Assembly: GCA_903813345.2 (NCBI GenBank)
Contig: CAIIXF020000007.1
Location: forward strand, 21,935,564 to 21,999,563
From: Owenia fusiformis
Taxonomy: Eukaryota; Annelida; Polychaeta; Sabellida; Oweniidae
Direction: 5' to 3'
Length of the DNA stretch: 64,000 nucleotides
In this document: piece by piece, positions 5,458 to 62,400 of the stretch
How positions within the stretch are numbered: the first letter of the stretch is position 1
Layout: every line of letters begins with the position of its first letter
The notes under the pieces: generated by a model
What the model was told of the DNA's origin: nothing
The model's input: the letters and a program-made list of their open reading frames with translations, nothing else
Database searches by the model: none
Program-made: the position numbers and the translations under genes

Positions 5458-7395
5458 TTTTTTTTTATTAAGAAATATTTATTGCTTCATAAAAATATCA
5501 TAATATAAATCCCTTCAGTCGCCCGAAGGCATTATAGAAGGGTACATTGATAGCACAAAATACAAAATTATGATTAGGTCAAGGGGTTCACTCTGCACTT
5601 GTGGTTGGCCATGGGGTGGAAATATTAAGTATGGATAATATAAAATAAAGTATAGTATATATAGTATGTAGGGAGGGGAAAACGTTATAGGTTCATTTCA
5701 ATGAATTCAGCAATTGAGGTTTGGAGGTGTGAATTTAGATCAAGGGAAATATTGTCAGAGCCATGTTTCATCAAGTAAAGGAGATCATTCTGAGTTAAAT
5801 GATTATCTGATAGTCCAGTTATATTAATAATATCAGTTTTTAATTTTGTTATCTTTTCTTTAATAAGGGGACACTGAAAGAAGAAGTGTTTTTCCGTCTG
5901 GGGGGCTCCACATTTACAGTTTGGATTCTCAACATAAGTAAAGTTGTGAGCATAAAGTTGGGCTTTGAAAAGTAGATCAGCTCTAAATTGGTTAATCAAA
6001 ATTTCATGAGATCTTTTTAGATTGAGTTTGGAGGTGCTAATAAAACTTTCTTGGTTTTTAAACAAAATCTTTTGGCGTTTTTTAAAGGATTGGAGAGTTT
6101 TCAAATTACGTAATCGTTTTGGTAGTCGTGACCAGTTTGATATTGCTGATGGAACTGATAAATTCAAGAACCTCTTTGAGCACCTGGTTGGTAAATTAAA
6201 GTCAGATCTATCACACAGAGTGCGTGTTCCCTGGTTTTTGAATTTATCAAAAATTTCATCTAAAAAGAGTGGATTTGGACCATTTACAACTTTGAACATA
6301 AAGTTGTTAATTTGCATATTTCTTCTTGTGTCTAGAGAAGGCCATTGAAGAAGATTCAAAACTTTATCAGTATTACTGCCATGAAGACAACCAGAGCACA
6401 AAAGAGCAGCCTGATAATAAATTTGATCAAGTCTATTTAGAAGATATTTTGATGCAGTGTTAAAAATAGCAGTACCATAATCAAAATGAGGTCTTATAAA
6501 TGAGTTGAAAAGCGTTTCCAGATCTCTTGAGTTTAACTTTGTTTTAAGGTTCTTCAGGGGATTTATCATTTTCCTAACTTTATCATATATTTCTTCAATA
6601 TGGTTTTGATTTGTCAGATTATGATCAAAAGTTTATCCAAGGTGTTTATGTACATTTGTTCTTTCAATTTCAGAGTCACTTAGAAAGGATTTGCTTACAT
6701 TTTGAGGATTTGCTCTAACTCCATGGAAAATAACTTCACAGCTCTTTTCTGGTTTAAATTGTAATTTCCACGATTTGGACCAGTTTTCTATCTCAGTTAG
6801 ATCAGATTTAACTAGTTCATCAATTTCTTGGGGCTTTTTGGGGTCAAAAATAAAATGAAGAGATGTGTCATCTGCATAGATATAACATTTGGAGTTTACA
6901 TTATCAGGAAGGTCATTAATGTATAAAATAAATAGAAGTGGACCTAAAATTGATCCCTGTGGTATGCCACAGTTTAGGAAGCCTGCTTCAGTTGTTACTG
7001 ATGACTCACCAGCAATGTTTACAAAAAAACGCCTATTTGTCAGATATGATTTTAATAAATTTAGAAGTTGTCCATGAATACCGTAGGCCCTTAGTTTGTG
7101 TAGAAGTAAGTTATGCGGAACACAGTCAAAAGCAGCTGCAATGTCAAGAAAAATGGTTTTAGAGGCTTTGCCTTGGTCAAAATTGGTAAGTAAAAAATGT
7201 TCAATTGCCATTAGCTGAGAATGGGTGCTATGGCCTGGTAGAAAGCCAGACTGATACTTGATCAAAAGATCATTTGAAATTAAGTGTTTTTTGATTTGGT
7301 CAGCTATAATTTTCTCAAATAATTTTGATAATGTGTTGAGTAATGTTATGGGTCTGTAGTTACTAATCTTGGATTTGTCCTGTTTTTTAAAAATA

Positions 7396-8444
7396 GGGTG
7401 TCCAAGAAGTAACGTCAATGACCCTGGCATTTTGTCATTTATGCTTCAAATGTCATGAAACTTGGTCAGAATGTTCCTTGGACATTTATACATATAAATA
7501 TGAAGTATGGAGTGACTGGCATTTGATTGGCCGATTTTATGGTTGCCATAGTAACACAAGTGCATGGACCCCGGGGCAGTTCAGAATGTACCTGGTAAAT
7601 ATTATGTAAATCAGGTTATTATAAGGTAAAACCTTTGGCAAAAATGAAATGCAATGTCTTGGGACTTTTTCAAATCTTAACGGTTTTATTGTTTATTGGG
7701 AGTTACCATGGTAACACTTCTTTGGAGTACTTTATGACATCATAATATGTTTTCTGTCTCTTGGACCGAATTCTTAGAATTATCATGGATGATGTCCTGA
7801 TTATATCACAATCAAAGTCGGACACAGCTAAAATGGCACCTGCACAGAGTAGGCTTGAGCAAAGATGTAGTATTAAATATAATGTAAAACTAGGTAAAAC
7901 AGCGAAAGAAACAATCAGAGATGTAATGAAGGCTTATGGGAGAGATATATATTCAAATGAAGAACTTAAGAGCTCTGTTCTGTCATCCCTTGCAGAAATG
8001 AGCTCTGGTGGTTTCAATAGAGTTTTCTTGGAGTGGGTAAGAAGACACCAGAGAATGGAACTTGGTCGTGATTATGTGGAGTAACATTCAATAAACTTTA
8101 ATATAACACTAATATAACGCCAGCAACAGCTATATTATGAATAAATGATGTGTAGTTGAAAACATTATATTTGTGGTCATATTATAAATAAAAGATGTAC
8201 ACTTCAAAACTAGTGTTTATGGTTATTTTATTTTCCAAAGATCTTACGGATTGCAGAGCTGCCCCGGGGTCCATGCACTTGTGTTACTATGGTAACCATA
8301 AATCCGGCCAATCAAATGCTAGTAACTCCATACTTCATATTTATATTTATAAATGTACAAGGAAAATTCTGACCAAGTTTCATGACATTTGAAGCATAAA
8401 TGACAAAATGCCAGGGTCATTGACGTTACTTCTTGGACACCCTG
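7396..8444 (+). mobile_element. Internally deleted mariner-type transposon in TA target, nested in the LINE
   Basis: TA lies at both borders (7394-7395 and 8445-8446). The inverted ends read GGGTGTCCAAGAAGTAACG on the left and CGTTACTTCTTGGACACCC on the right. The inverted similarity continues inward for roughly 180 bp on each side, including an inverted stretch with GTTACTATGGTAACCATA-like sequence. The element splits an RT open frame, which gives its boundaries independently. It contains a shortened transposase frame. Confidence 0.85.
7833..8084 (+). pseudogene. Mariner transposase with its catalytic centre deleted
   Basis: The ATG at 7833 opens an 83-codon frame. The N-terminal part (EQRCSIKYNVKLGKTAKET and following) matches the first helix-turn-helix of mariner-family transposases, which binds the inverted repeats. 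The C-terminal part (FLEWVRRHQRMELGRDYVE) looks like the usual C-terminal end. The DDE/D catalytic core of ~200 residues between them is absent, so the product could bind DNA but not cut it. Such deletion derivatives can be moved in trans, or could interfere with intact transposase; that is inference. Confidence 0.7.
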
Positions 8445-34104: not shown

Positions 34105-34356
34105 GATGTGGCCATGATTTGGCCTCACACTCACCTGACTTCAACGTCCCAGACTTCTATGTGTGGGATTTTAAGGACCATTGTTTATGAAAACCACCCC
34201 CAGATAATCAGACACCTGAAAACAGAAATCACCGCAAAGATCAGAACCATCCCAACAGAGTGTGCCGGGGAGTGTGTCTGCGTAATTGACAACTTTGTGC
34301 GTCGCATTCAGGAGTGTCTGCGACGTCGAGGTGGTCATATCGAACACATGTTTTGA
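34105..34356 (+). pseudogene. C-terminal remnant of a Tc1/mariner-like transposase
   Basis: One frame encodes HSPDFNVPDFYVWDFK, the block around the third catalytic Asp of DDE transposases. After a frameshift near 34185 a second frame gives VYENHP, EITAKIRTIP, IDNFVRRIQECLRRRGGHIE and MF, the usual C-terminal end of such proteins. The rest of the gene is gone. The element's outer boundaries are not clear. Confidence 0.75.
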
Positions 34357-34551
34357 AAGGTCATAAAACCCAAACTTTAAGGACTGGTTTATTATCAACG
34401 AATCTTAATTTGAGTTAAGAATGAAGCACAAATCTTATTAGATATAGAAATGACGAGCACATTTATGAATTGCACTCAGCATAACCGTTCAATTGTGATA
34501 AATCATGTTATATTTTATACTTTTTATTATATGCTATCATGTTAGCCTTGC

Positions 34552-34720: not shown

Positions 34721-37700
34721 ATGATTACAAAGTTTCCTGTAACATTGGTAGTTATCATATGGGCATCCATTAGCCTCATAGAGAGTCATCAAAGATGCCC
34801 CTCATCATGTCACGTGAGACATCACGTTCTGGAATGTCGTGGTCGGCTACTACCCGATGATTTGAATAACGTTATCGTAGAATGTGTAACGCCTACGGTG
34901 ACAGAAATGTAAGTTCCACGTACCCTATCGATTAAAGAAAATTGCAAATAATACCATGTTCATAATATGATACTTCATGCGATATATAATTTGAATTGAC
35001 ACGTAAGTAAATTTTTGTCAAATAAAGTTAGCAATCCGATCGCGATCGTCAACACAATGTATGTCAAATGTAACTATTTTACCATGCAACATTAAATATG
35101 TTCTATAGCTGTTCCCAGCAATCCTATATCATCTTTCATTGGTTAACATGCAACTTTCGAAAATTCAGCAGTGAACCATGGTCAATTTGCGTCTTATGAA
35201 TGATTGGAATAAAGTCGATTTAATATCAGTCTCCGTGCAATACGATTCATTTAGATAGAATTATAGTAAATATCTATGTTATTGAAATTATAAGCTGTCA
35301 TCAAGGTGTTGATAAATTGTACATTTTTATTTCTTCCAGATATTTATCTCACAATGTGAAGAGATGTGATTGCAAGTGGTGGTTATTTCTCCAACAATTG
35401 AAGAAAAGGGATAACGTCAATGTCTTCAGCTACAAGCACAATCCGCAATGTTCTGGCAATCTTCGAAAGATTTGTGAGTTTCTATACGCAATTGCCCGCA
35501 ATTGTGACTGATTAGTTAACCTAAACGAGTTCCGAGTCCTATTTTCTTGATTTTGAAAAAGTATGGACGCCGAAAATATGAATATGGGTGTCCTCCCATT
35601 TCGCCCCTTCCCACTTTGCTCCTTCCCATTTCGCCCCTCATTTATTCCCATTTGGCCCCTTCCCATTTTGCCCCTATCCATTTCGCCCCTTCCCATTTTG
35701 CCCCTTTCCCAAATTGCCCCCTTCCCATTTCGCCCCTCATTCCCCCTTCGCCCCTTCCCATTTCGCCCCTTCCCAATTGGCCCCTTTCCCATTTCGCCCC
35801 TCGTTCATTCCCATTTCGCCCCTTCCCATTTCGCCCCTCATTTATTCCCATTTCGCCCCTTCCCATTTCGCCCCTACCCATTTCGCCCCTTCCCATTTCG
35901 CCCAATGGTCAATGGTCAATGCGATGTTTAAGTAGGTGGAGCTTAAAGCTGGCATGCAGCTTGCATCTCCTTATATGTTACCAGTTCTGACACAAGGGGC
36001 GATAGACAAGGGGTGAAATGGCAAAGGGGCAAAATGGGAAAGGGGCCAATTGGGAAGGGGCGAAATAGGACGGGGCGAAATGGGAAAGGGGCGACATGGG
36101 AAGGGGCGAAATGGGAAGGGGCGATAAGGGAAAGGGGAGATATGGGAAGGGAGCAACACGGGAAAGGGCTGAAATGGCAAAGGGGCAAAATGGGAAATGG
36201 GCGAAATGGGGAAGGGCCGAAATGGGAATAAATGAGGGGCGAAATGGGAATAAACCAGGAATATGCAATGACAAGATGTTAAGTATTTTATATCTGGATA
36301 AAGACTTTAAGGTTTTTGAACTACAAGTGCCTTCGTTTGTACCATTGTCACGAAATAGATGAAACTCCTAAAAACTTGCTATTACACAGAAAATAGAAAA
36401 AGTACCAATGGCCAGTATTATCATGTAACCAGCTAATCGATAGTACGTTTTAGACTTTCTAGGATACCACGGGTTGGGATCGAAAGATTTGTCTGCCGTT
36501 GGGAGCATGCTATTTTTCACAAATTATTTTTTACTGTTATACCTAAGACAATTACCTACCCAATGTTGGGTCATTTGCGGATAACCTTCACTTACGTTTG
36601 AAGTCCATAACGCTATGACTGTATGAGTATTAAAACGGCGCCGGAGTTTCATACTGTAAAATGTACCTTCTATTTCTAAAAAAAATCAAAACCATCATTC
36701 ACAGTTAGTTAGCTCGTACATATGTTGAATAATGGATGTGAATTTAATTTTATATGTCGTGCCTTCTGGGTGAAACTTGATGTACATGTAAATTGTGTAA
36801 TTGTAAATTACGAATGCATTTCTGTTTTAAAAACATGTGTGTTAATACCCCGGGGGGTTCACTGTATGTAAACTTTGACGGGGATCCTCGGCGCACATGA
36901 GGTACCTTTTTGACATTTGGTATGGCAATGGACACAAATTTTAAGATCTGGTATCAGAATGCTCCCCAAAATTATTACTTTGAGGTATGGGAATGTTGGG
37001 TTTTTTCCACTTTCTGGTATGAGAATGATTCTGTAAAATATGTTACCTCACATTTGTGATGTGACATTGGTCTAGTAGCTACACAAATCCTTAATTTGAG
37101 GTTGTTTTGGATTGTAATTCTCAAAGATCTGCCTCCTTTTCGAGGATTTATGTTTGAATATTATTTTTTTCTTTTGTGGTATGGCATTGGTCCTATATTT
37201 GGACATTTGTTATGGCATTGGTCTTACATTTGGACATTTGGTATGGTTTTTAGCGTTAATTTGGTTGGTCGGGGAACCCATTGAAATTTGACAGATTTTT
37301 ATGGGAATATATTGATATATTGAATTTTGTATACAGTGAACCCCGGGGTTTAATACTGCCATCTTTATCTTGGACTTGTGCCCATGTGAACACCTCAACT
37401 TCTTTTACAAATGATAGGTACAATGTATGACGATTCATATTTTATTTCTACAGGTACCAGAATGTATCAAAGTCACTACAATAGCCATACTGTTGAACGT
37501 CCACCTCATAATCACAGAAAAGAAACCAGACAAGACTTGGCAGAAAATAATTATCGAGTTCACAGAAAAGAGAGCATACGTCAAAATCAAAATGAAGTAA
37601 AAACGAAATCAGAGAAAGAAACCAACCGTGGGCCAAATGGCGACAAGGTGGACATTGAAAATAAGAGCAGTGGTCAAACTATGGAGGACACGGGTCCAAG

Positions 37701-40700
37701 ACGAATGAAAGAAGCTTTGGACAGTAATCTAAAAAACAAACATCAAGACACCAAATCAGATCCACAAGAACAGCTGTCAAATAGCAATGGCCTGGACAGT
37801 ACAGATCGATTGCTTCTTAGAGTTCTCCTCATGAAAATGAAAACTAGGAACGCGCCTCGCAGGCATCTTGACTCGACAAGAAAAGACAAAGTGTTACCCA
37901 AAACGGCAATACCTGACGAAGATGCTCTTACCCAGACAAGTGTGAATGCACCTGATACTAATATAGTTAAACGAATTAAAACGGTCAAAAAGAAGCATTA
38001 TACTCGTGACAATTATCCAGACGAGCGTATCCAAACATCTACAATAAAACCTGACATAAATTATCCACCAGACAGGCGTACCAAAGAAGCTAAAAAGAAT
38101 CATCTGAAGAATATAGAAATCAAGCGGAGAAAAATTCGGAGAACAAGAGCTGTTGAAACAGTACATGATGAGAAATCGAACAAAAGTGATGCTAATCATG
38201 TGCTTGCAAATGATATATCCTCGACCCCTATTCCAAACCAATTGCGAGTTAATCAATCAAAACCCATAGTAAAGAAAGTAGTAAAACTTGGCGCTAAACA
38301 TGAAACAGATAAGCAAGTGAAGCTAAATGCCACGGTTATTCCCGCAAAATCATCCACTCGTGCACCTACTCACACTCCTATAACAATTGGACAAGTACCC
38401 CCAACAACTGTCGTTACATCACATAGTACTAAAGTACCGTTAGAAAGTTCGAACGATATTTCAGTCACCAAACAAACACTGAGAGATTCACTTGTAAAAA
38501 TAGACAGGATGCCAATTCCTCTTCCTCAACAAAATATAATTGTATTGACTCCTGAAATAAACAACTTGAAAATGAATAATCTGGAAAGGCCGCCACTCGG
38601 AGATAACGCAAGCCAAAATTACAATGAGAAGCTGGCGCAACGTGAAATGGAAGAAATGAATTCCTTCGCCAGTGTGGAACAAATAAATAAAGAGCAAAAT
38701 ACACCATTGATGTCATCAGATAAAAATAAAAGCGCATCAATCTCAACCATCGCAGAAACGACTCTATCTAGTAACTCACAGGCTGGTGATAAAAATGACA
38801 AAACCACTACTGTAGCTTCTATTATGAAAGCACCAAAACATGAAATTATAAACAAAATGTCGACGACAATTAGTCCTCAATCTAAATACACATACAAGGG
38901 TCAACTTCCAAGAGTTTACATGCCTTTTATTCCAAATATCTACGGTCCCTTAAATGAGGCAAATGCCAAGTCAGACAAACATGTGTTAACAGCCAATGAT
39001 TTGATGCCACCTAGAGTGTACAAAGGGCAGATGTTGATTGGTCGAAAGCTTTACCCTCTTGATAAAACTAACAAAGAGTCTATGGATGCTTTAAAACAAT
39101 TTGTCACAGACACAAATAAGAAGATTTCTGTGCTGAGCAGAGCCAATACAAAGCATTTCTACATGAAGATTTTCCTGTATAAAATGATGAGATTCACAAA
39201 GACATACCTGGGAAAAGATGTACAACATTTAGTGGAAGGTTTGTTTACTCTTAATTTATTCATTTTATTTGATATAATTATGATTGTATGGATTAACTAA
39301 ACAAGCATACGTTAATGTCACTAGATCGTTATATTGTGGATTCAATGATGGACTCAGCCATCGCCCTAGCTAGTTCTTATGATTTATTTATTACGATATG
39401 ATATTACATTTCAGGACCAGTTAAGAGGACAATTATAAGCAAACGGTCTGTCAATAAGCCGAACGAAAATGACACAAGAAGATCGTTTAGAAAGCTGAGA
39501 AAAATGCACTTTAAACAAATGCCCTATACTACTTCCAAGAAAAAACATGCAAAACTTCCAAGCAAGAAAAAAGCAAGAAGGAAATGGAAACGATATTACA
39601 ACACAAGAAATACCAAAGATCAAAGGAAAATGGCCAAAATCAAAATGGCCAGTGCAAAACATCGAGGGATGAAAAAACTGAGACGACATAGAAAACAAAG
39701 AATGCTTAAACAGATAGGGAAACGTCATTACCTCACAAGAAATACAAAAGATCAAAGGAAAATGGCCAAAATCAAGAAGAACCGTGCAAGACTTCCAAGG
39801 CAGAAAGAATTACGAAGACAGAGAAAGCATAGAACTCTTCAAGAGAAAAGAAAATCAAGTAGACGGAGAAAACTAAGAAAACGCTTAAGTAAAGACAAAA
39901 CTCATTACACCACAAGAAATACAAAGGACAAAATTAAAAAGGGCGAAATTAATAAGAACTATGCAAAAGCGCTACGGAAGAGAAATCTAAGAAAACGAAT
40001 TAAGCATGAAATACTTCAGAAGAAAGGGAAACGACATTACATTACAAAAAATACAAAAGCTGAAAGAAAAACGGCCGAAATAAAGAAGAACCGTGCAAGA
40101 CTTCCGAGGCAGAAAGAATTGCGAAGACAGAGAAAGCATAGAACTCTTCAAAAGAAAAGAAAATCAAGTAGGCGGAGAAAACTAAGAAAACGCTTAAGTA
40201 AAGACAAAACTCATTACACCACAAGAAATACAAAGGACAAAATTAAAAAGGGCGAAATTAATAAGAACCATACAAAAGCGCTACGAAAGAGAAATCTAAG
40301 AAAACGAATTAAGCATGAAATACTTCAGAAGAAAGGGAAACGCCACTACATGACAAAAAATACAAAATATGAAAGAAAAACGGCCGAAATAAAGAAGAAC
40401 CGTGCAAAACGTATGAGAAAGAAAAAACAAAAAAGACAGAGAAAGCATAGAAAACCTAAGAAAGAGAAACGTAATGACATCACAAGAAATACAAAAGTTA
40501 AAAGGAAAGAAACCCAAATCAAAAAGCCCCGTGCAAAAAGTGTAAGGATGAAAAAACTGAGACGAAAGAGAAAACAAAGAAAGCTTAAAAAGCAAGTGAA
40601 ACGTCATTACATCAGAAGAAATACAAAATATCAAAGGAAAAGGGCCGAAGTCAAGAGGGATCGTGCAAAACATCCAAGGATGAAAAATTCAAGAAGCCGG

Positions 40701-43700
40701 AGAAAGCTTAGAAATCCTCAAAAGAGGACAAAATCAAGTACAAGGAGAAATCAAAGAAAACTTCCAAGTAAAGGGAAACGCCATTACATCACAAGAAATA
40801 TAAAAGACAAAAGGAAACAGACCCGAATCAAGCAGAAGCGTCCAAAACCTTTGAGGAAGAAAAAACTAAGAAGACGGGGAAAACATAGAAGACCTCAGAA
40901 GAAAGGGAAACACCATTACATCACACAAGAAATACAAAAGACAAAAGGAAGAAGCCCCAAATTAAGAAGTACCGTCCAAAACCGCCGAGAAAGAGAAAAC
41001 TAAGAAGACGGGGAAAACATAGAAGACCTCGGAAGAAAGGGAAACGCCATTACATCACAAGAAATACAAAAGACAAAATGAAAAAGCCCCAAATTAAGAA
41101 ATACCGTGCAAAACCGCCGAGGAAAGAAACCCAAATCAAAAAGGTCCGTGCAAAAAGTGTAAGGATGAAAAAGCTGAGACGGCAGAGAAAACAACGAAAG
41201 CTTAAAAAGCAAGGGAAACATCATTACATCAGAAGAAATACAAAATATCAAAGGAAGAGACCCAAAGTCAAGAGGCATCGTGCGAAACGTCCAAGGATGA
41301 AACATTCAAGAAGACGGATAAAGCAAATAAATCTTCAAAAGAGGAAAAAATCAAGTAGAAGGAGAAAGCAAAGAAAACTTCCAAGTAAAGGGAAACGACA
41401 TTACATCACAAGAAATATAAAAGACAAAGGGAAACAGACCCGAATCAAGCAGAAGCGTCCAAAACCTTTGAGGAAGAAAAAACTAAGAAGACGGGAAAAA
41501 CATAGAAGACATCAGAAGAAAGGGAAACGCCATTACATCATAAGAAGTACTAAAGACAAAAGGAAAAAGGCCCAAATTAAGAAGTACCGTGCAAAACCGC
41601 CGAGAAAGAGAAAACTAAGAAGACGGAAAAAACATAGAAAACCTCAGAAGAAAGGGAAACACCATTACATCATAAGAAATACAAAAGACAAAAGGAAAAA
41701 GGCCGAAATTAAGAAGTACCGTGCAAAACCGCCGAAGAAGAGAAAACTAAGAAGACGGAAAAAACATAGAAAACATCAGAAGAAAGGGAAACACCATTAC
41801 ATCACAAGAAATAAAAAAGAAAAAAGGGAAAGGCCCCAAATCAAAAAGAACCATGAAAAACCGCTGAGGAAGGGAAAACTAAAAAGACGGAGAAAACAAA
41901 GAAAAGCTCAGAAGAAAGGCAAACGCCATTTTATTACAAGAAATACAAAAGACAAAAGGAGAAACCATAGAAAACTCCAGATGAAAGAGAAACACAATTA
42001 CATCATAACAAATACAAAAGATAAAGGGGAAAAGACTCAAATCAAGAAGAACCGTGCAAAACTGCTAAGGAAGAACAAACTTAGAAGACGAATAAAACAT
42101 AGAAAACTTCAGAAGGGAAAAAATTCAAGTAAACTGAGAAAGCAAAGAAAACTCACGAGAAATTCAAAAGATAAAAAGAAAAGGGCCCAAATCAAGAAAG
42201 ATCATGTAAAAACTCTAAGGGGGATAAAATCAAGGAGAACGCTTGAGAGGAAGGGGAAACGCCATAGCACCACAAAAAATACAAAAGATCAGAAGAAAAG
42301 GGCCAAGCTCAAGAAAATCCATCCAAAACGTCTAAAGATGAAAAAGGATGAAAGTCAGGGGATGCAAAAAAATCTTCAAAAGGAGAAACTTCATCTTAAG
42401 AAATCTAAACTACATTACAAGACGAAGGATACCGAAGGCCAAAGTGAAAAGGCCAAAATTAAGAGGAATCGTGTAAAACGTCCAAGGAAGAACACTATCA
42501 AAAAGAGAAAGCTCGGAAAACTTCAAAAGAAAAGAAACCTCAAGGAGGGCCGCACCAAAGATCACAAGAACAAGGTCCAAACTAATAAAAAGATACAATT
42601 AAAAAAGTTAAAACAATCAAAAGGAAATAAACAAATGAAAAAATGGAAAAAATTGAAGAAACAGAAACAGCCAAGGCAAAATGCACGAAGTAAAAATAGG
42701 AAACAAATCAAACAATCAGAAAGGAAACAAATAAAGAAACAGAAAGATCTGAGTAAAAAAACACAACTAATTAAAAATAAACGCGGCAAACAATCTAGGA
42801 AAACACAACCAATAAAGAGATTGCAGATGAGACAAAAGAGCAAAATAGATAAGAAGAAAATGAGAAAGAAAAAATTAAAGAAACATACCGGACAAAGTGA
42901 AGAACTGTTTAAGAAGAAACGTATACATATATCAAAAGCAGAGAACAAAACGATCACATTGCATGTGAAGAGATTTCCATTAAAACACCATATTGGTCCA
43001 ACACTGTCATCGAAAAATAACAGAGGAAAACCGTTGAGAAATCATAATAAACAAAGGAAAAATGGGTCAATTAAAAAGGAAAATATCAACAGCTCAAACA
43101 GAACCAAAGTACGGCGACAAAGAAATGTTCCAACGGAAAAAGAGAGGCTAGCACTTTTGCAGAGACGAGAACGAAGAAGGAAAGCTCAGATGGAAAAACG
43201 AAAACAATTACGTAAAGAGAGATATAGACAATGGAAGGAATCTAAAAATAGGAGAAAACAAAAGCAACCGTCAGCTAGCATTCAACACTTACGAAACAAG
43301 AAACAACAGATTCAAAAGAAACAAGCAGACAGAAAGAAACTTATCCAACAATTTTGGATGGACCAACTGCGCAAGCATAGACACCTGAATCGAAAGATAC
43401 CAAGTGATGAGGAGAAAAGTATCGAACCATCGGTTCTACAGACGAAGCTAGCAATGAAAAATAATCCACGTGAACAAAATGACATCGAGGAAAGAATTGC
43501 CGAAACTGAATCGGAAAAGATCGGGGGGACATTGAAAAACGCCAAGCATGATTTGAAAAAGAAAGCTGAGACACACAAGAAGGACAAACAGAGACACGAG
43601 GTGGTAAAAGTTAGCAAAACGGAACAGAAAAGGAAGAAATCAAAAAATATTCGCAACAAGTTAAGTAAGAAACCTCAGACACCAAATAAAAAACGACACG

Positions 43701-46700
43701 AGCAAAGACGAGTTGAGGTGGAAATCAAAAAAATGCATCCAGAAAGAAAGAAATCAAATGATGTTCCAAAGGAGCCGAGTGTGAAATCGAAGACACATCA
43801 TAACAATATACACAAACAAAAACGCATTGAAGTTAGAATACACAAAACAGATGCGGGGAGAAATTCAAAATATATAATGAGTGAACCGAATGAGAAACAT
43901 AAGAAACATAAGGCGCATAATAACAAACTACACGAACAAAAACGTATTGAAGTTAGAGTCCACAAAACACACCCTGAGAGAAATTTGAAAAATAATCAGA
44001 ATGAGTCGAGTGAGAAATCTAAGACACATAAGAAAAATCTACATAAATATCATAAGAACGGTAAAATGGTTCACCATACGCCAAGGAAAAACTGGATGAG
44101 TTACGATGGCGAAAGGATTATCTCCACACACAGTTCGGAACCAAAGACTAAACCATATGTACCAGAAGAAGGTAAGTGTCCTCGTCCAATTATATACATG
44201 TTTAGAATCATAAAACCATTTGGTGTTCAGCTGGCTTTAAAGTCCTTATGTCAAAATATGTTTTTATCATCCATTTACTATTTGTCATGACTTTAAAAGA
44301 TATTTTATCAATTTAAAAAAAGATTTGAAAAAAGGTTGTTGGCTTTTCATTTCTCAAATATTCTCATTTCTCGCCATTTTTCAAATAAAAGTTTTAATCA
44401 TCAAATACTCCACTGCTGTATATTAAAAAGTGCAAAACGCATTATTTTTACACCACTGCAGATTTTTTCTAAATATGCTAAACTTCAAAAATAAATTCTG
44501 TATCTTTAAGGTGATGTTGTATCTTTTAGGTGATTATGTAGAAATATTTTGCAATGCGTGAGTGAAAAGAATTTAAGCCCAAGACTCAATGCATTGTGGC
44601 TGCTTCATTCCACTCAGGTGTTGTTCCCTAAACTTTGCATTCCCGATGCGCGGTCATGCAAACATTTGGAAACAGCACCTTCAAAGGAATGATTCAGCAT
44701 TGCACTGAGTTCAGGGCTTAAATCCTTAAACCAGGTTAAAGGGAAGAATATATATTTAAATATTATTGTACCATTGGTTTCTATGATACTTTCTATGGAA
44801 CTAAAATTGCATTTTTTCTCTGAACCATTTTCATGCATGGATTCATTTCACGCCTTTTTATGAACCAATTTTTTCTGCAAAATACACTTGAAGATTTATG
44901 CTATTGTGTGAGTTATCGCTTATTAAAAGATACGTGTAATCTCTAAAAATAAAAAATTTGCTAATTTGACAAGTGCTACATGTATGTTATGTACCTTCAT
45001 TGAAAATTACAGTTCATTCCATAGTGATGTTACCTAATGCCCGAGTCACATTTGCTCCGATTCATCGGCCGGCGTATTTTGTTCAAAACTGTATTTAGCA
45101 TAAGTGGGGTTTAATATCAAGTACCAGTTGATTTAATCTTGCAACAAATGTGCATCATTTACATCATCTCCAGATATGTACCGAGGTGACGTTTTTAAAG
45201 GCTCGGTGATTTAAACCAAGTCTAGATCTAATATTGGTTCAAAAAATAAATGATCGTTATGCCATGGTGGTTTTATTTTTTCAGCCAAGAGTCGACTTGA
45301 GAAATTAAAAGACAACTATGGAAGACCAATACCAGTTCTTAACGTCAAAGATCCTGTTCCAGTTCATGACCTAAAGCATCATCGAGTAAGTTGATCTTTA
45401 TCATAATAATAAGTACCAAGAGCAACATTTGAGGAACAAAAACTTAGACTTCATTATGGTTAATGCCACATCCCTTGTCCATGGGTATTCCGATTATTTC
45501 CATGAGCTGGGTCAGCGGTGCTCGATCTTGAAAGATGCTCTGCTAAGTCTCTGACGGCCATGGCAAACACTAAGTAGGATATAAGTATGACGCGACATCT
45601 ATTAAAACATAATTAAGCCTCACATCTTAACTATTTCTAGCGACTTGGTAACAATGGAATTAAAGATTATGAAAATAATAAATATTTATTTCAGATCAAA
45701 CAAGTCATGTACATTGATAGCGAGAATCGAAAAATATGGGATGAAAAGACAGACCAGTGGCGTAAAACGATGATATGCATCGTTATTGGCACAATAGTTG
45801 GGGTCATTCTCATCCTTATAGTTATACTGATAGCAGCCAATGTAAGTATTGAATTAACTATCGTTTCTTAAGAACTTGAGTGACTTGATCCATTGGCTTT
45901 CAATTAGATCTAGTTGAAAGCCCATGCTTGATTTTAGTATGGAAGCTGACACCTGAACGGTCATAGTTCAGTTCAGAGTTCAGGTTCAGTTCTATTTTTT
46001 CAGATATTTTAATGGAAGAGTGACTCATTCTACTACGGCTATAGTATTTTTACAACAGCTCTAAATAGATATAATTTCTTAGGCAACATTAGACAAGGAG
46101 CGATGAACAGATAAAGTGAGATTTTAAAGCATGTAAAGAGGCCTCATTTTTTGTAAAGTGGTCAAAATTCGATCGAATAAATTGACAACTTGACAAGTGT
46201 CTCCCAAATATCTTCTAAAATATTTATAACTCTGATCATCCTGACAATAGAAAGCAATCGGTGAGTAAGTATTTTAAAACTTGAAAAATTGAAATTATAT
46301 AAATAATAGGTTTTAGTTAAAAATGTTGATACCAAAATGAACATTTACAATATTTGACGCATTTAAAGATGGCAGTACTAATATTCACGTCATTTCGGAT
46401 TCAGAGGCCACCGTGCAGTTGCCTGCTTTCCAGTCTTGCTTACCCTATACTATTCACCATCCTCAAACTTTCGAAAAGAATAAACTAATGAATTTCACAA
46501 TTGATTCTGTTTTTTTCAGTTATGTATTGAAAGAAACGAAGCAAGACGCCGTAGAGCTTTACTTGAGGGTGCAGGCTTATGTTACAGTTGTAACAGGAAT
46601 AATGCATTGGATATAGCAAGGGCGGAGTTATCTCATGGCGACAAGGTAAAATATGTTTTAATGTACATCGTTTCTATAGTTACCAAAAAGTCTGTGTGGT

Positions 46701-47159
46701 TTCATTCCTTCTAAACCTTCTTTACTTGCCCGATTGAGTATAAAGGTATGAGGGAAATGGTTGTAATTAGATTGAGGTTCCTTGACAATTGAGGGGGAAT
46801 AGTAATCCTTAGACGTCATATGTTAGTAGTAACACGTTCACGTACAAGTTCACTGTAAAACGTGTAGCTTAACCGTCCTGATATCTCGTTCTGGAACGGC
46901 TGATTGATAGAAAGTCCCACAAAGTCAAATGATACAAAAACCAACCAATTTAGGAAATTGATTTTCTTAGCAGTAAAATCCACACTCTTGAAATGCATGA
47001 AGCAAATGAATGATGACTGTGATAAGCTATAACTAAATATAACATGAATAAATGAGGATTTTTTCTTTCCAGGAGTCGTATGAACATCTACTTAGGGCAC
47101 AGAGAAACAAGTCCATGGGAAAAAGAGGGAGCACATTATTATCAGACTCTGACTCTTAA
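34721..47159 (+). CDS. Gene A: giant single-pass membrane protein with LRRNT/LRRCT head and polycationic repeat ectodomain
   Basis: Coding exons are 34721-34908, 35340-35473, 37454-39238, 39415-44171, 45285-45385, 45695-45841, 46520-46645 and 47073-47159. All are GT-AG and phases agree, giving about 2,440 residues if a 2-bp insertion near 40922-40927 is discounted. Residues 1-22 form a signal peptide. CPSSCHVRHHVLECRG with LPDDL is an LRRNT-like cap, and CDCKWWLFLQQL...CSGNLRKIC is an LRRCT-like cap. Residues ~110-700 are polar and Lys/Thr-rich. Residues ~703-2287 are extremely Lys/Arg-rich, with about 21 copies of a ~44-residue unit (HYITRNTKDKRKK...). A helix (MICIVIGTIVGVILILIVIL) at ~2346-2366 anchors it, and a ~70-residue tail has CYSC. 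An acceptor at 34718 just before the ATG implies a 5' non-coding exon. Function unknown; an extracellular polycation is inferred. Confidence 0.85.
35594..36247. repeat. Inverted pair of minisatellite arrays in intron 2 of gene A
   Basis: Array 1 (about 35594-35903) repeats a ~15-bp unit, CCCATTTCGCCCCTT. Array 2 (about 36011-36247) repeats its complement, GGGGCGAAATGGGAA. A spacer of about 107 bp separates them. The arrays can pair along most of their length. Open frames on both strands here come from the repeat and are not genes. Confidence 0.9.
36841..37356. mobile_element. ~516-bp inverted-end element in intron 2 of gene A
   Basis: GTTAATACCCCGGGGGGTTC at the left matches, inverted, GAACCCCGGGGTTTAATAC-type sequence at the right, each continuing with CACTGTAT. 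The interior repeats GGTATGG(C/G)ATTGG-like phrases (TTTGGACATTTGGTATGG and similar). It lies 97 bp upstream of exon 3. Confidence 0.75.
39560..42480 (+). repeat. Coding tandem repeat of gene A, ~132-bp (44-codon) unit, about 21 copies
   Basis: The landmark HYIT(R/K)NTKDKRKK recurs about 21 times. A clean run from about 41522 to 41920 has copies exactly 132 bp apart. In one such unit 24 of 44 residues are Lys or Arg and only two are acidic. A larger duplication with a 309-bp (103-codon) shift is visible at 39891/40200, and another pairs about 40780-40880 with 41390-41490. Copies drift in sequence toward the 3' side. Confidence 0.9.
40922..40927 (+). other. 2-bp insertion frameshift in gene A
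   Basis: The repeat landmark normally reads CATTACATCACAAGAAAT. Here it reads CATCACACAAGAAAT, with an extra CA in a CACACA run. The upstream frame then stops at 41003. The downstream frame is open from this point to 44290 and continues the 44-residue repeat exactly. Removing two bases restores the repeat, so this is an indel and not an intron. Confidence 0.85.
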
Positions 47160-51528: not shown

Positions 51529-54500
51529 ATGAAGTTCGATAAGTTTGATGGAAGAGGAAGGTATACATTTTTATTTGTTGTTTTACTTTTGCAATTGATA
51601 TAAGGATTGGTAATTGGGGATATATAATTTTAATTCTTGATGTTATATATGCTACAACGTTTAACCATAACCAGCATAACCAGAGACATATGCAATAACT
51701 TAGATCATTCGACATGAAATTGGGCCTCTCTCTACTTCCTGTATATTGTATAGGCCTTCCGTAGTTTTGAATTTTTTGGAGGGATAGGATTTCATGTTTT
51801 TCAAATTTTCTCTTATTCATATTCTATGAATTAACGAATACATAGATTAACGATTATTTAGATTATAATACCTGCCATGTCACGCCCGGTGATCGTACAA
51901 AATGGATGGAGGGGGGATTAGGCGATTTCTGCAAGAAAACTCAACTTTGGAAGATTTATTTTTTCAAGAGAAAATTTACAACTGAATTGCCAAATAAATA
52001 GGCGCAGTGCATGGCAAAATATGTTAGGCCATCTAGTAGTAGAGTAAATCTCAGGCTCATGAATTATTTGAAAATATGGAAACCTTTATGATAAAATAGT
52101 CCATCTATTACGTTACATTTTTTAAAAAGTAGTTTCGTTGGTGATCTGGTTTAGATCTTGATCCAATAATTGTGTATGCGACTGACTAGAACCAGTGAAA
52201 AGCTAAATATGTTTGATGATAGACGACGTCTTTCACCAAAAATATTTACCGCGTTTGTAATTTCATAAAGGACAAGTTTGGTATCAATTAGAGTCGAAAT
52301 AATTATTACTACAACATATTAGCATTGTTAACATAGTCACATAGACTCTGTCTGTCAAAGTGACCTTGATATTTTTCCAAACATAAATGGGTAAAAATGT
52401 AATTATGCTCTAATATACATTTTAAATGACGGAAATTCAGACATTTATGAATTTATAAAGTAGCTATGCCAAACTTTTATTCATTCCATATCATAAATAA
52501 AACAATAGTTTTATCCGATTCAAATGATTGAATGATTTTTGTTGTATTTTATAATTGTTTATTGAGTTTTTGGACAATGAGGGTCATCCTGAAATGTTTA
52601 ATATTTTATTGCCTCAAGAAATTGTACTAAATAAATCTAGTTTCATCCGTGTGCTCCTCTCTCTCCCCTCCCCCATGGTCTTAGTACATGTAGTATTGGG
52701 TCGACTGCTGGAAAGATTGGTGACCGCGGAGTATTTTAATATTTTTTCTTGACTTTTTCACATATGTAAACCAGGGATGATAATGAGACAGCTTCTGATT
52801 AATTCACCCATTTTAATCAAAGTCGGAATCCTTTGTATTAACAATTATCAATGTAAATTAATGTATTTACAAGATTGATTGGCTTCTTGGTATTTCGAAA
52901 CAACCCTAATTAATACTTCCCTATGACGACTGTGATAAGGATCCAGGGAATTTTTTCGAGAAGCCGCTTATGACACGAATTCAATATTTAAAAAACAAAT
53001 TTATGTTCAAGAGTTCAAAAAAATGTGCCCTTAAGCTATATATTCAATTTTTTAAGATTAGTTTGACAGATATACTGGCGTCCTGTTTGATCAAGTTACT
53101 TAATGGGTATATGTTCAATAATCGAGTGGGATCCAAAGTGGTTTGGTCCTCAATACTTGAACTACGCTCCCTCCTTTATGACATATTAATAAAAAAGCTC
53201 ACGATCTGCATATCTAAGATGATAAGTAGAGTTTAGCTCATAACACACGATAATCCGATTCAGTAAAGACATATAAAGGTAGAAGTTATTATTTTTGTAA
53301 AATTAACAAAAGCGCTGGATTTAAACTTTGGATACTTAATGAACCTTATTTCTAGCGATATGTTCGAGATTACAATATGTTAACTTAAAGATATCTTTTT
53401 GTATTTCTAGTTTTGCCGAGGAAGTACTAGTCCGTTCCAACCGGATGGAGAGATACAGAGAGTCCCCTCCTCCAGGGGGCCCTCATGTTATTAAAACGGG
53501 TCCACGGAACCCACTAAGGGACTCGGGGTATTTCGATGAGTCCCTCCATGTTTATAACAGCAGCGATGATAACCTAGATGATGATTTGTGGAATGGATCT
53601 GATCGAGATGCCGACGATGAAAGAAATAGCCCGATCCGAAGAGCACAGAGCATGGAGAGTATGAGTGTTAGATTGGATAGTGGGTATCAGACACCACAGA
53701 GCCTCCCATCCCCAACAGGCCCGAATGACGAATCGCCAAAGAAACGCTCTCGTTCCACGTCTTACTTGAATCGATCAAACGGACCAAACGCCAGTTTTCG
53801 TAATGATAGTTCTGTTCCGACTAGGAGTCATTCAATGGGCCACCTCGATTTCACACCTTATGTTAGCGATGTCATCACAATCGATAGTGATGTTCCTAAC
53901 ACATACAAGACATTCACCACACACCTTTGTCATTTCTCCCACCTCGATGTTAACACGGGAAAACTGCTGGACATCGACGTTGATAATGATAATGCGTCTA
54001 TGAACGTCTCGACGGATGAAATTCATCCCGAAGATACAGTCTATGGTACCAAGATGATAAGCTTCCCACAGACCGTGCAGCACGCAAGTTATGCAAAGCC
54101 AAAGAGTAAAACCGAGCACAGTGTTGAAGTTGGGCCCATGCGCCATCACTCGTACGTCGTACATCTCTTCCTCAACAAACGTAAAACCATCGAGTTGGGA
54201 CCCGAGGAGGACTGGGAGATCGAGACTTCTCAGCAGACCACAACACAAAGGAGGGTTACTGAGGTAGTAGAAGAGGAAATAATGACCCAGCAGCCACCGG
54301 AAATCGAGACCAATGAAACAACAACCCAGACCAACATTCAACAGGTAGTGACGAATGTTCAAATCAAGCCAGATATACAACGCGAATCACATGTTACATA
54401 TCTACACATGAACAAGAAACGCTTGGTAGAACTTGAAGTTGAACCTGTAATAAAAGAACAATTGATACAACAAACCGTTGAAGAAACTGTTCATCAGGAA

Positions 54501-55751
54501 CAAGTTAAACCCGTAGTTGATGCCGGGGTCCAGATAAGCTGTTTCGCACACGTCTATGGCAACACGGCTTGTCAAACTGATGACGATGCACCTTATGTCG
54601 AAGCAGAATCCAGTCAGACCGAAAAACCGAGTATGATAGATCGCCTTGTCAACACCGATCCTGATCTATTTGAAGAGTTCGTGAGCAAATGGTACAAATC
54701 TACGGAGGAGGTTACAACGACAGTTCAGAAGCCTGGTGCTGTGGCTAATGGAACACAGACGAATCAAAAACCATTGACAAATACCAACGTAAATACAGAT
54801 GATTCAATGTTTAGTGAGTACATATTTGACGTTTTCCAATCCTCTCTGCCGGTGACAGAGAACGCTGATATCCAAACTGTAGACACAACAAAGCCTCCAA
54901 GAATGGTTGATCAAGGCGTCAATGTTACCAACGAGTCTAACAACGCCCAATGCCAGACATTGAATAAATCTACAACGAATACGGATATGTCAACAGACAA
55001 TAATATGTTCGAGGAATATATAAAACAAAACTTTGTTGCAGCTGCGGTTTCAAAAATGACAATAGCGTCTGCTCAAAAGGAACTAGCATTACGCGAGCGA
55101 TTGAGAGAGCTCGAAATGCGAACAGAGACTGTTGTTGATGGACCCTCTGTTTCAAGTATCGAATGCCAAACAGATCCTCTAGTTGATATGGAGGAAAATG
55201 AAATAATTACCACAACAGAAACCACCACAACGGTCTCTAAGGAAGAACAAGAGGCGGATGTACGTGCTCAAGCTTTAGAGTTGTTCGAACAATACAAGGA
55301 GGAATATAGATTGAGTATGTTGCGTCCGATGTCAGACGCCGAAGCGCAGTGTGATGAAGAGATTGAGGATGAAGAGTGGAGACATGAGGAGTGGACCGAC
55401 ACCCACACGCACTCCTTCTCTGATCGCCAGACAACAGAAAAGGAGTTACTACAGTCTGCACTAGATAACAGCCACGTTGACACGCTACTACAAAACTTGA
55501 TGGAGAAGGTAGTAACTACACAGACTCTAGTTGAGGGAGGGGAAACTGTTGTCGTTCGAGATGCTGAGACCCAAACTAAAATAGACCTGGCGACCTTTGA
55601 CTACAGTGACTTTCCCATACGTTCGCAGATTATTCGTGTCAAGGTGCCATTGGTGGATCACTTTGGTAGGCCGCAAACGCTTTACGTCAATGAGCCATAC
55701 CGCCCCTACGAAAGCCTAAAAAACTACAAATATCAGTTCGGCCACCATTAG
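51529..55751 (+). CDS. Disordered acidic protein with repeated TQT-type motifs (probable LC8/dynein light chain ligand), two exons
   Basis: The main exon, 53411-55751, follows a TTTCTAG acceptor and is open through the ATG at 53445 to the stop: 768 residues from that ATG. A first exon at 51529-51560 (MKFDKFDGRG, then GTATAC donor) has the needed phase and would give 790 residues. That exon is tentative. There is no signal peptide or membrane helix; the composition is polar, acidic and low in hydrophobics. TQT occurs at residues 294, 437, 692 and 709 (from 53445), with related CQTD, CQTL, SQTE and IQTV. A unit like VNTDDSMFSEYIFDVF occurs three times (about 54642, 54789 and 54976). Three copies of an H-x-x-(H/N)-x-L-x-(V/M)-N-x-x-(K/R)-x-(L/V)-(E/D)-(L/I) phrase precede it. 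It is not recognised as a named family. TQT is the anchor motif recognised by LC8, so a multivalent scaffold is inferred. Confidence 0.8.
51561..53410. other. Putative intron 1 of the TQT-motif gene
   Basis: AT-rich sequence with no supportable exon. If the proposed first exon is wrong, this is upstream or 5' UTR-intron sequence. Confidence 0.4.
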
Positions 55752-58546: not shown

Positions 58547-61500
58547 ATGAGAACATTCATGTTTATATCCTGTTTTATTGTGTTCTTATGTAACTTTGTG
58601 ACTGGACTCCCATTGCAAAAGGTAAGTGCATGCTGAAAATCTTTTTTATAGTCAAAGTTGTGAACAAAATTCTTCTCCTTTATCCTAAAATTTAGACACT
58701 GTGACTGTATTTCAATTTTCAATTGGCATAGTAATATGAAGATTTCACCGGTTTGTAGCCTTTGATTTTATCTGTGAAGTGAAGTCGATTATAGACAGGT
58801 ACATCATAGAAAATGAGTCTCCAGTCAGGAAAGAATAAGCTTCCTATACCAATAAGGTCAAAACATATCCCTTTTTTGCATTCCACAGCCCCACAGCCCA
58901 CTTCGGGAATGTGAAATAAGAATGCTGCCCTTCGAAAATTTACCTTTTGGTTTTAATGGCTTTAATTTACCGATTCAACAACTGAAGCTTAAGCTATAGC
59001 AATACATGTTTTTCTGAAGTATGAATAAACGTGTTTAGATTTCATTCTCGTATTCATTACCATGGGAAACTTTTCAATGTCATGTTTTTGAATGTCAATT
59101 TCATCAACCACAAGGTTACACCAGTCCTATGTTGAGAATCCATTATTCGATCAGCAGAGATTTGTAACAATTACCACGTGTTGTTTATTAACAGAGTCCT
59201 CCCAGGGGGTTACGACAATGCATGAACAACACCGACTGTCACTCTAGTGGATACGTGTGTCTGAAGGTGGCCCTGTTTAACGACCTGTTTGCCTTCGTCG
59301 AAGATCCATTTAAACAGCGGATTGGAGGATGGTGTGTAGACAAGATTGCCACCAAGCAGTTTCTTATAGAACAGACACAAGGTGATTCATCAAAATTGGA
59401 AATATCTTAAATTGACAAAAATGTTGTTGTCAGAAACAGCCTTTGTCTAATAGTTTTAATACCATCTATATAACGTGCAACTGTCAGATAGTTTGTCAAA
59501 TATTGCAGCGATATCAACAGAGATCTCTATGCTCAAACACAATTCGATTATTTTACAGCTGATCCTTTTGACAAAAGAGCATCGACCGAATCTGAAATCA
59601 AAGAGCAACTGGTGGAAGTTAAATCCCGAAATGGGAATCCCAATATGCATCTAAATGACCCGCATGCGTTTGAAAAACAAATGCCAAACCCACCCATAAT
59701 TAAAGATATAAAACGAACACGCAAATATAAAGAATATGTAAAACGGCCAGACAAACGTACAAAATATGTAAAACGGCCAGACAAATTAAAAAATGCAAAA
59801 CTGTTACATAAATCCAGAAAATATGCAAAACGGCCACACAACTCTAAAAAAGATTTTAAACGGCCAAACAAGTATACAAAAAATCCAAACCGACCACGAA
59901 AACAAGGTAAAGATGTAAAACGGGCACACAAATCTACCAAAAAATTAAAACGGCCACACAAATATACAAAAGATGCAAAACGGTTACACAAATATACAAA
60001 AGATGTAAAACGGCCACATAAATATACGAAAGATGCAAAACGGTCACACAAATATAAAAAAGATGCAAAACGGCCACACAAATATAACAAAGATGCAAAA
60101 CGGCCACACAACTCTACAAAAGATTTAAAACGGCCAAACAAGTATACAAAAAGTACAACCCGACCACGCAAACGTGGAAAAGGTGTAAAACGGACACACA
60201 AATATACAAAAGATGTAGAACGATCACACAAATACACGAAAGACACAAAACATTCGAAGGAAAACAAATACACAAGAGGTAAACGTTCAATCAAAAATAA
60301 ATACACAAAAGATGTCAAACGTCCAATCAAATATACAAAAGAAATAGATCCTGTGTTTGACATTAAAGTCTCAAACACACGTACAGAAGACGCAAAAGTG
60401 CCTATTAAATACATGAACAAAATATTAAAACTTCAAAATAAACATTCAAAAAATACAAACAAAAACAAATATACAAAATATGTAAAACGTCCAAACAAGT
60501 ACACGAAAAATCGTCCACACGAATATGCGAAAGACGTAAAACGCCCAAATGAATATATAAAATATGTAAAGCGTCCAAACAAAAACACGAAATATGTAAA
60601 ACGCCCAAATAAACTAACAAAAATGGTAAAACGTCCAAACAATCTAACGAAATATGTAAAACGTCCAAACAAACTAACAAAAATTGTAAAACGTCCAAAC
60701 AATCTGACGAAATATGTAAAACGTCCAAACAAACTAACAAAAATTGTGAAACGTCCAAAGAAACTAACGAAATATGTAAAACGTCCAAACAAACTAACGA
60801 AAATTGTAAAACGTCCAAACAAACTAATGAAATATGTAAAACGTCCAAACAAACTAACAAAAATTGTAAAACGTCCAAACAAACTAACGAAAATTGTAAA
60901 ACGTCCAAACAAACGAACGAAATATGTAAAACGTCCAAACAAGCTAACGAAAATTGTAAAACGTCCAAACAAACTAACAAAATATGTAAAACGTCCAAAC
61001 AAACTAACAAAAATTGTAAAACGTCCAAACAAACTAACGAAATATGTAAAACGTCCAAACGAACTAACGAAAATTGTAAACCGTCCAAACGAAATAACGA
61101 AATATGTAAAACGTCCAAACAAACTAACGAAAATTGTAAAACGTCCAAACAAACTAATGAAATATGTAAAACGTCCAAACAAGTACACGAAAGAGGTAAA
61201 ACCAAATACCTTTGAAATAACCCTCCCAAATAAAGAAAAGAAAGATAGGCCTATAAAAGTCGCATATCCAAAAACAAAAGAGATAAAACGTCCAAAAAAA
61301 TATAAAAATTATGTAAAACGTCCAAACAAATACAAAAAAGTGGTAAAACCCAAAACTTTTGAAATAAAACTCCCAAATAAACAAAGGAAAGACGTAAAAT
61401 TAAAAGTCACATATGCACAAACGAAGGAGATAAAACGTCCACATAAATATGCAAAGGACGGAAAACGTCCACACAAATATTCAAAAGAGATTAACCCAAA

Positions 61501-61913
61501 TATATTTGACATACACTTCAAAGATCCCAAGCTAACGAATTATATAAAAGTTCCAAGCAAATACACAAAAGATGCAAAACGTCCAAATAAATACGATGTA
61601 CGCATCAAGAGAGCATCACGTTCGAATGATGACCCAGAGTTCGAACACCGTCCAAGACGTGAGAAACATTCAAATGTCATCACTGGCATAACCAAAGCCA
61701 ATCAGGGAGAGCTAAAACAAACATTTGGAACGGATAAGCCGAAGAAGATTGCAAACACGGACATGACCAAAACTGAGAGTCTGATTGTTGGAAGCAGGCA
61801 CGAGGCTATTCCGGCTCCTACAATTCCCGTTGATGCTCCGGGACAACCTAAAACATACGGAACGACAGTGAACACTTTGCCGAGAGTCATAGAGGAGAGA
61901 GATGACGATTCCG
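58547..61913 (+). CDS. Gene B: secreted polycationic decapeptide-repeat protein, first three exons
   Basis: Exons are 58547-58621, 59195-59381 and 59559-61913, GT-AG with phases 0 and 1 agreeing. The last donor (GTGAGT at 61914) shows that at least one more exon exists, so the protein is incomplete at about 872 residues. Residues 1-20 are a signal peptide (MRTFMFISCFIVFLCNFVTG). Exon 2 encodes a short four-cysteine segment (CMNNTDC, YVC, GWC). Exon 3 is dominated by ten-residue units, first mostly K-D-A-K-R-P-H-K-Y-T, later alternating KYVKRPNKLT and KIVKRPNKLT. Longer phrases (TFEI-LPNK, KPKTFEIKLPNK) interrupt the later part. The last ~90 residues are less basic. Acidic residues are almost absent from the array. 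Function unknown: structural matrix polycation, or peptide precursor; KR followed by Pro argues against efficient convertase cleavage. Confidence 0.85.
60541..61195 (+). repeat. Homogenised 60-bp coding tandem repeat in gene B
   Basis: About eleven 60-bp units, each coding for two decapeptides, run without a single insertion or deletion. Units differ by scattered point changes, many of them synonymous (ACG/ACA, CTA/CTG). The older decapeptide array upstream (59712-60540) has the same ten-codon rhythm with more divergence and some irregular spacing. Long open frames on the opposite strand across this region come from the repeat. Confidence 0.95.
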
Positions 61914-62400
61914 GTGAGTAACTCGAGAATTTAGAAATCAAGGCACGGACCCAAGTGCGAGCTTTTGAGACCAATAGTTCATGCATGTACATGGACCTAG
62001 CTACATGAACGCATTGTTCAGTCTGTACAATAATTAAAGTGTCTTTCTAAGACTTAGAAGGAGAAATTTGAGATTTCGAGCCATATGTCTCAAGAAAATG
62101 CTCTTACCTTTCTAGTAGGATGAGTTCAGGTGCCAAAAACAGCTGATCAAAGGATATATATCATTTTCTAATTGAAAATTTTTGTTGAGCCCTGCATTTT
62201 TAACACTGTTTTGACAGGAAGTCTTACCCAAAATGAAAACTGAATAAAACAACATTTATCCTAAATGTAGACCAAAATACTTACTCAGACATGCAAAATG
62301 TTATTATTAGTAGTAATGCTGATCATTTTTAAGAAATTTAAGCATGTAAATAAGACTTTTTTCGTCCATGATTATATACATAAAGAATTTCATTTATCAG
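61914..62400. other. Gene B intron or downstream sequence
   Basis: This begins with the GTGAGT donor. No following exon could be supported within the sequence shown. Confidence 0.4.

Follow-up and report, generated by a model that had tools for sequence, protein, structure and literature searches.

The window analysed, a stretch of 64,000 nucleotides corresponding to C7:21935564-21999563 of the 498.26 Mb Owenia fusiformis genome, contains a gene with eight coding exons, as the first-pass annotation had proposed. Canonical GT/AG borders were found at all exons, which extend from the ATG at 34721 to the stop codon at 47157-47159 (Table 1). A TTTCAG acceptor located 2 bases before this ATG suggests an upstream non-coding exon, and the first AATAAA past the stop codon is at 47705. 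Hydropathy analysis was also in agreement with the predicted signal peptide and single transmembrane helix. The latter, at residues ~2348-2374, has a 19-residue Kyte-Doolittle mean of 3.4 and is the sole hydrophobic segment besides the signal sequence. A genome search showed that the head, exon 3 and the transmembrane/tail part are each present once in the 498 Mb. Visual inspection pointed to the decayed end of a mariner-like transposase (SPDFNVPDFYVWD...) at ~34105-34360, ~365 bp before the ATG. Intron 2 carries, at 35594-36254, two opposed minisatellite arrays of 15-16 bp, (CCCATTTCGCCCCTT)n and its reverse complement, which are able to form a long hairpin.

Table 1. Coordinates of the features identified in the window.
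Feature	Position	Strand	Description
Coding exon 1	34721..34908	+	ATG, signal peptide MITKFPVTLVVIIWASISLIES, LRRNT-like CPSSC...LECRG; GT donor gtaagt
Coding exon 2	35340..35473	+	LRRCT-like CDCKWW...PQCSG; splice borders
Coding exon 3	37454..39238	+	Last Cys of LRRCT-like cap, Thr/Asn/Lys-rich stalk, C-terminal small folded module
Coding exon 4	39415..44171	+	Lys/Arg-rich, 1,585 codons; single copy in genome
+2 frameshift	40918..40932	+	CATCACACAAGAAATAC vs CATCACAAGAAATAC in sister units
Coding exon 5	45285..45385	+	Juxtamembrane segment; splice borders, single-copy
Coding exon 6	45695..45841	+	Transmembrane helix TMICIVIGTIVGVILILIVILIAAN
Coding exon 7	46520..46645	+	Cytoplasmic LCIERNEARRRRALLEGAGLCYSCNRNN...
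Coding exon 8	47073..47159	+	Tail end ...YEHLLRAQRNKSMGKRGSTLLSDSDS, stop
Neighbouring secreted basic protein gene	58547..61914	+	Signal peptide exon, Cys-rich exon (~59195-59381), Lys/Arg repeat exon

The proposal that the eight exons join in phase does not hold for the assembled sequence. Exon 4 (4,757 nt) has its frame broken at ~40924 by a two-base insertion, CACACA for CACA, present in one of the nine comparable repeat copies, and the unit carrying it reads CATCACACAAG instead of CATCACAAG. The open stretches span 39402-41003 in frame 1 and 40889-44290 in frame 2. The Lys/Arg repeat protein carries on in the second frame, which is the sole frame compatible in phase with exon 5, and exons 4-8 are in phase only across the +2 shift. 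In a literal translation the Lys/Arg frame is left at residue ~1205, a stop follows ~27 residues later and the transmembrane helix is never reached; the assembled sequence being frameshifted, the product as read is therefore truncated and soluble. An internal intron removing the shift was considered and rejected because there is no good acceptor near it: before the internal AGs of exon 4, the pyrimidine content peaks at 0.8 (at 39538, far 5' of the shift) and otherwise does not exceed 0.67.

The possible origin of this frameshift was considered. A real truncating allele is possible and, if the shift were both real and fixed, the gene would encode a truncated soluble basic protein of ~1,230 residues or be a young pseudogene. 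The sole assembled copy carries the +2, and neither a second haplotype nor a paralog devoid of the insertion was found in the assembly. For the published O. fusiformis assembly, obtained from PacBio reads with CANU and 3d-dna scaffolding, both long and short reads served for polishing (PMC9977687), which, if this assembly is the one used here, also speaks for a genuine shift. However, the 1,081 codons and the four exons past the shift are still open and in phase, and the shift is located within tandem-repeat sequence, for which polishing works least reliably; in a polished PacBio/CANU assembly, if this is the one, a residual indel in such a repeat is not surprising. We consider a fixed frameshift unlikely and, from the sequence, the shift most likely reflects either faulty assembly or a recent allele and is not part of the design of the gene. 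Provided that the +2 is such a defect, a real and unusual protein-coding gene appears well supported, with a signal peptide, a small Cys-rich LRR-cap-like head, a giant Lys/Arg repeat, a transmembrane helix and a short tail. Under the same proviso, the architecture advanced in the first-pass annotation is upheld by the splice borders, the codon frame and the single-copy matches, although the frameshift had been missed and the LRR caps are recognizable only at signature level.

In the head, residues 1-107 contain seven cysteines and one more lies where exons 2 and 3 meet, and there is at most one LRR-like segment between the two caps. In favour of the LRRNT/LRRCT label it had been given, the N-cap can be aligned in register with the LRRNT of Slit2 (RCPSSC..VLECRG and HCPAAC..IVDCRG, respectively), with a weak E of 0.88, and the C-cap shows the CDC-W signature, four Cys and a short last loop. 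Nevertheless, the caps are degenerate and in the profile search of the head with Pfam LRRNT, LRRCT and LRR no family matched at E≤10. A clear LRR gene of the Owenia genome has an N-cap that likewise escapes Pfam LRRNT. Elsewhere in the 498 Mb, the only open-frame match to the head was the signal peptide and LRRNT of a clear-LRR gene on C4, with a weak genome-wide E of 0.73. Comparison of the C-cap alone with the PDB yielded only non-LRR matches and the reversed control no matches at all, so the C-cap is assigned from its cysteine signature alone. The AF2 single-sequence model of exon 2 consisted of one helix (residues 11-23, pLDDT 53) and was too weak for a fold search. From these sequence features, the head is best described as LRR-cap-like and not as an established LRR domain.

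Exon 3 encodes 595 residues that form a Thr/Asn/Lys-rich stalk with a module at its end (~38992-39210). The AF2 single-sequence model of this module contains three strands and two helices and is of moderate confidence, with pLDDT 70-86 over the beta3-alpha2 part. No fold match was obtained for it in the PDB at E≤0.001. A viral origin of exon 3 was also considered and discarded, since no relative was detected in viral contigs.

The basic ectodomain, announced as having ~1,600 residues, is encoded by exon 4, whose 1,585 residues include 42% Lys plus Arg (26 and 16%, respectively), with a pI of 12 and a net charge of +569. Up to ~42398 it is made of ~18 degenerate units, mostly of 43-59 amino acids, and a non-repeated basic region follows. 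The consensus unit of 44 residues contains 25 Lys or Arg (57%), in accordance with the earlier statement that they make up about half of a unit. The base composition of exon 4, with 51% A and 13% T, by itself favours long Lys/Arg frames. The Lys/Arg frame is stop-free for 502 codons before the shift and 1,081 after it (1,583 in total); the other frames have 23-34 and 56-83 stops in these two parts, and first-order Markov shuffles remained open for at most 163 and 209 codons, respectively. The observed Lys plus Arg fractions of both parts (0.46 and 0.41) were above those of every first-order shuffle. In 127 of the 136 pairs of repeat units, which are not independent of each other, pN was lower than pS (mean 0.25 vs 0.42). 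Differences between units were nearly even over the codon positions (0.26/0.30/0.30), and A to G changes at Lys codons led to Arg in 15 cases and to Glu in seven (one-sided P 0.067). The single open frame beyond the shuffles, the lower pN, the even codon positions and the Lys to Arg bias evidenced that the exon 4 region is coding and that its constraint is weak and mostly on charge.

The longest basic run in exon 4 has five residues, compared with ~8 in shuffles, and the Lys/Arg repeat is depleted in runs of at least six; this absence of basic runs longer than five may ease translation and translocation. In addition, exon 4 contains six sites of the furin consensus RxK/RR, fewer than the 17-21 of shuffles. 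When repeat columns were shuffled, four were observed against 10.5 (P 0.0025), a comparison in which the relatedness of the units is uncontrolled, and the depletion is absent from the non-repeated part. The depletion is for that relatedness no more than a hint that the chain stays whole. Exon 4 also has 105 [KR]R dibasic pairs and, dibasic sites being so abundant, convertases might cut this region.

Eleven kb downstream of the gene there is another gene for a secreted basic protein, with ~50 ten-residue KRPNKLTKxV units. A paralog of this neighbour on C3 (~3653700-3656100) has the same plan, with a Cys exon 29% identical and KRPKKYTKDR repeats. They constitute a two-member family with one Cys-rich exon and arrays of KR-P-x-K-x-T-K 10-mers, in which KR is found in register at ten-residue intervals, a pattern also seen in multi-peptide precursors. 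Apart from composition, no evident sequence is shared between the two basic-repeat proteins of the window, which thus appears to harbour two independent secreted basic-repeat genes close together.

The exon 4 product could itself be such a precursor, its ectodomain being cut at dibasics into many small basic peptides (KGKR / HYITRNTKD / KRKK) with a transmembrane stub as by-product. The recurrence of HYITRNTK-type segments between KGKR and KRKK, the number of [KR]R pairs and the periodic KR of the neighbouring gene would agree with this. However, the dibasics are everywhere and not at fixed borders, the units drift, and a transmembrane anchor together with a globular head is unusual for such precursors; the scarcity of RxK/RR points in the same direction, although not in the non-repeated part. 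We regard this processing as improbable.

Alternatively, inspection by eye may have merged two distinct genes, one for a small protein of LRR type, secreted or in the membrane, and the other for an intracellular basic protein of nuclear or ribosomal-like kind. The exon 3-4 and exon 4-5 junctions are drawn from sequence alone, and the exon 3 donor, GTTTGT, is weak. Nevertheless, phases agree at every junction if the shift is accepted, just 176 bp separate exons 3 and 4, and exon 3 is already increasingly basic toward exon 4, and we find a fusion of two genes very unlikely. Finally, a fortuitous open frame in a purine-rich satellite, which the base composition of exon 4 would favour together with its Lys/Arg content, is hardly credible, because the first-order shuffles rule out a chance frame, the single open frame being 3-5 times longer than in any of them and its Lys plus Arg above all, and because the region is a single locus in the genome.

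Other elements were observed in the surroundings. A LINE-type reverse-transcriptase frame with a Pfam RVT_1 match is located at 5685-7445 on the minus strand, and a second frame of this type at L030:1947-4397 on the plus strand. The region 53343-55751 contains an open frame of 802 codons, acidic and Ser/Thr-rich (MERYRESPPPGGP...), without significant Pfam or PDB relatives. Just past the window on C7 (L030:4688-6111) there is a long array (...PQKLYGGPQ...) open on both strands, apparently a satellite.

We propose, with about an even chance of being right, that the gene encodes a type I membrane protein of ~2,440 residues (~294 kDa) in which a disulfide-rich, LRR-cap-like head and a stalk are followed by a disordered polycation of ~1,585 residues that serves as a membrane-anchored polyelectrolyte for polyanionic material of the secretory epidermis. 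The protein would be a membrane-tethered counterpart of the polybasic proteins of worm cement, and the presence of a second secreted Lys/Arg repeat gene nearby, with its paralog, is in line with this proposal. A signal peptide followed by a single transmembrane helix would place the polycation in the extracellular space or the lumen of a secretory granule, and disorder and polyanion binding are expected from ~42% Lys/Arg and little hydrophobic content. Anchored in a secretory or cuticle-forming epithelium, the polycation would pack, hold or condense polyanions on the cell surface or the granule membrane of the secretory epidermis. Candidate polyanions are sulfated or phosphorylated glycans and phosphoproteins from the mucus, cuticle or tube. 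The short cytoplasmic tail may act in sorting. A surface polycation binding acidic matter would follow from topology and charge; we infer expression, extracellular location, ligand and tissue.

More tentatively, and with clearly lower confidence, the gene may represent an undescribed class of animal membrane proteins, a surface- or granule-anchored polycation of ~+570 acting as scaffold for an extracellular structure, beside a second, independently evolved polycation gene. A limited text search of the literature found no description of such a protein. An ectodomain largely made of Lys and Arg must be translated without stalling, cross the translocon and escape cleavage by convertases. Should the protein be expressed as modelled, it would be a test case for the biology of these three steps and, in marine worms, a partner on the membrane side for glues and tubes based on polyanions.

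Several known systems resemble parts of this protein. In the sandcastle-worm cement, polybasic proteins are paired with sulfated polyanions in secretory granules (PMC11277488). Like Pc1/2/4/5 of the Phragmatopoma cement, which are paired with polyanions, the Owenia protein is from an annelid, predicted to enter the secretory pathway and strongly basic. However, those are secreted cement parts, whereas the Owenia protein, which is far larger, has an LRR-cap-like head, a transmembrane helix and a tail, with only 2% Tyr in exon 4, and no homology was seen. More generally, a polybasic protein of annelid cement or tubes would be expected to be soluble and secreted, and here a transmembrane anchor is present. 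In contrast with neuropeptide and other multi-peptide precursors, there are no conserved peptides between fixed dibasics and a transmembrane helix is found. The neighbouring gene and its C3 paralog share with the eight-exon gene a signal peptide, a small Cys-rich exon and a long Lys/Arg tandem repeat in one exon, but the neighbour has a different Cys domain and a repeat of 10 residues.

Regarding the head, the CPxxC...xCxG N-cap and CDCxxW C-cap recall the LRRNT of Slit and small LRR membrane proteins of the GPIb-beta/GPIX type, which have one LRR between caps and, like the Owenia protein, a transmembrane helix. Unlike these, the Owenia head fails Pfam, lacks one canonical N-cap Cys, has a short last cap loop and precedes a basic ectodomain of 2,200 residues. 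PRELP and chondroadherin are SLRPs with heparin-binding basic termini. They likewise combine an LRR-type head with a Lys/Arg-rich extension, proposed for glycosaminoglycan binding, although theirs are ~10 LRRs with short basic tails and no transmembrane helix, as opposed to the at most one LRR-like segment and the membrane anchor of the Owenia protein.
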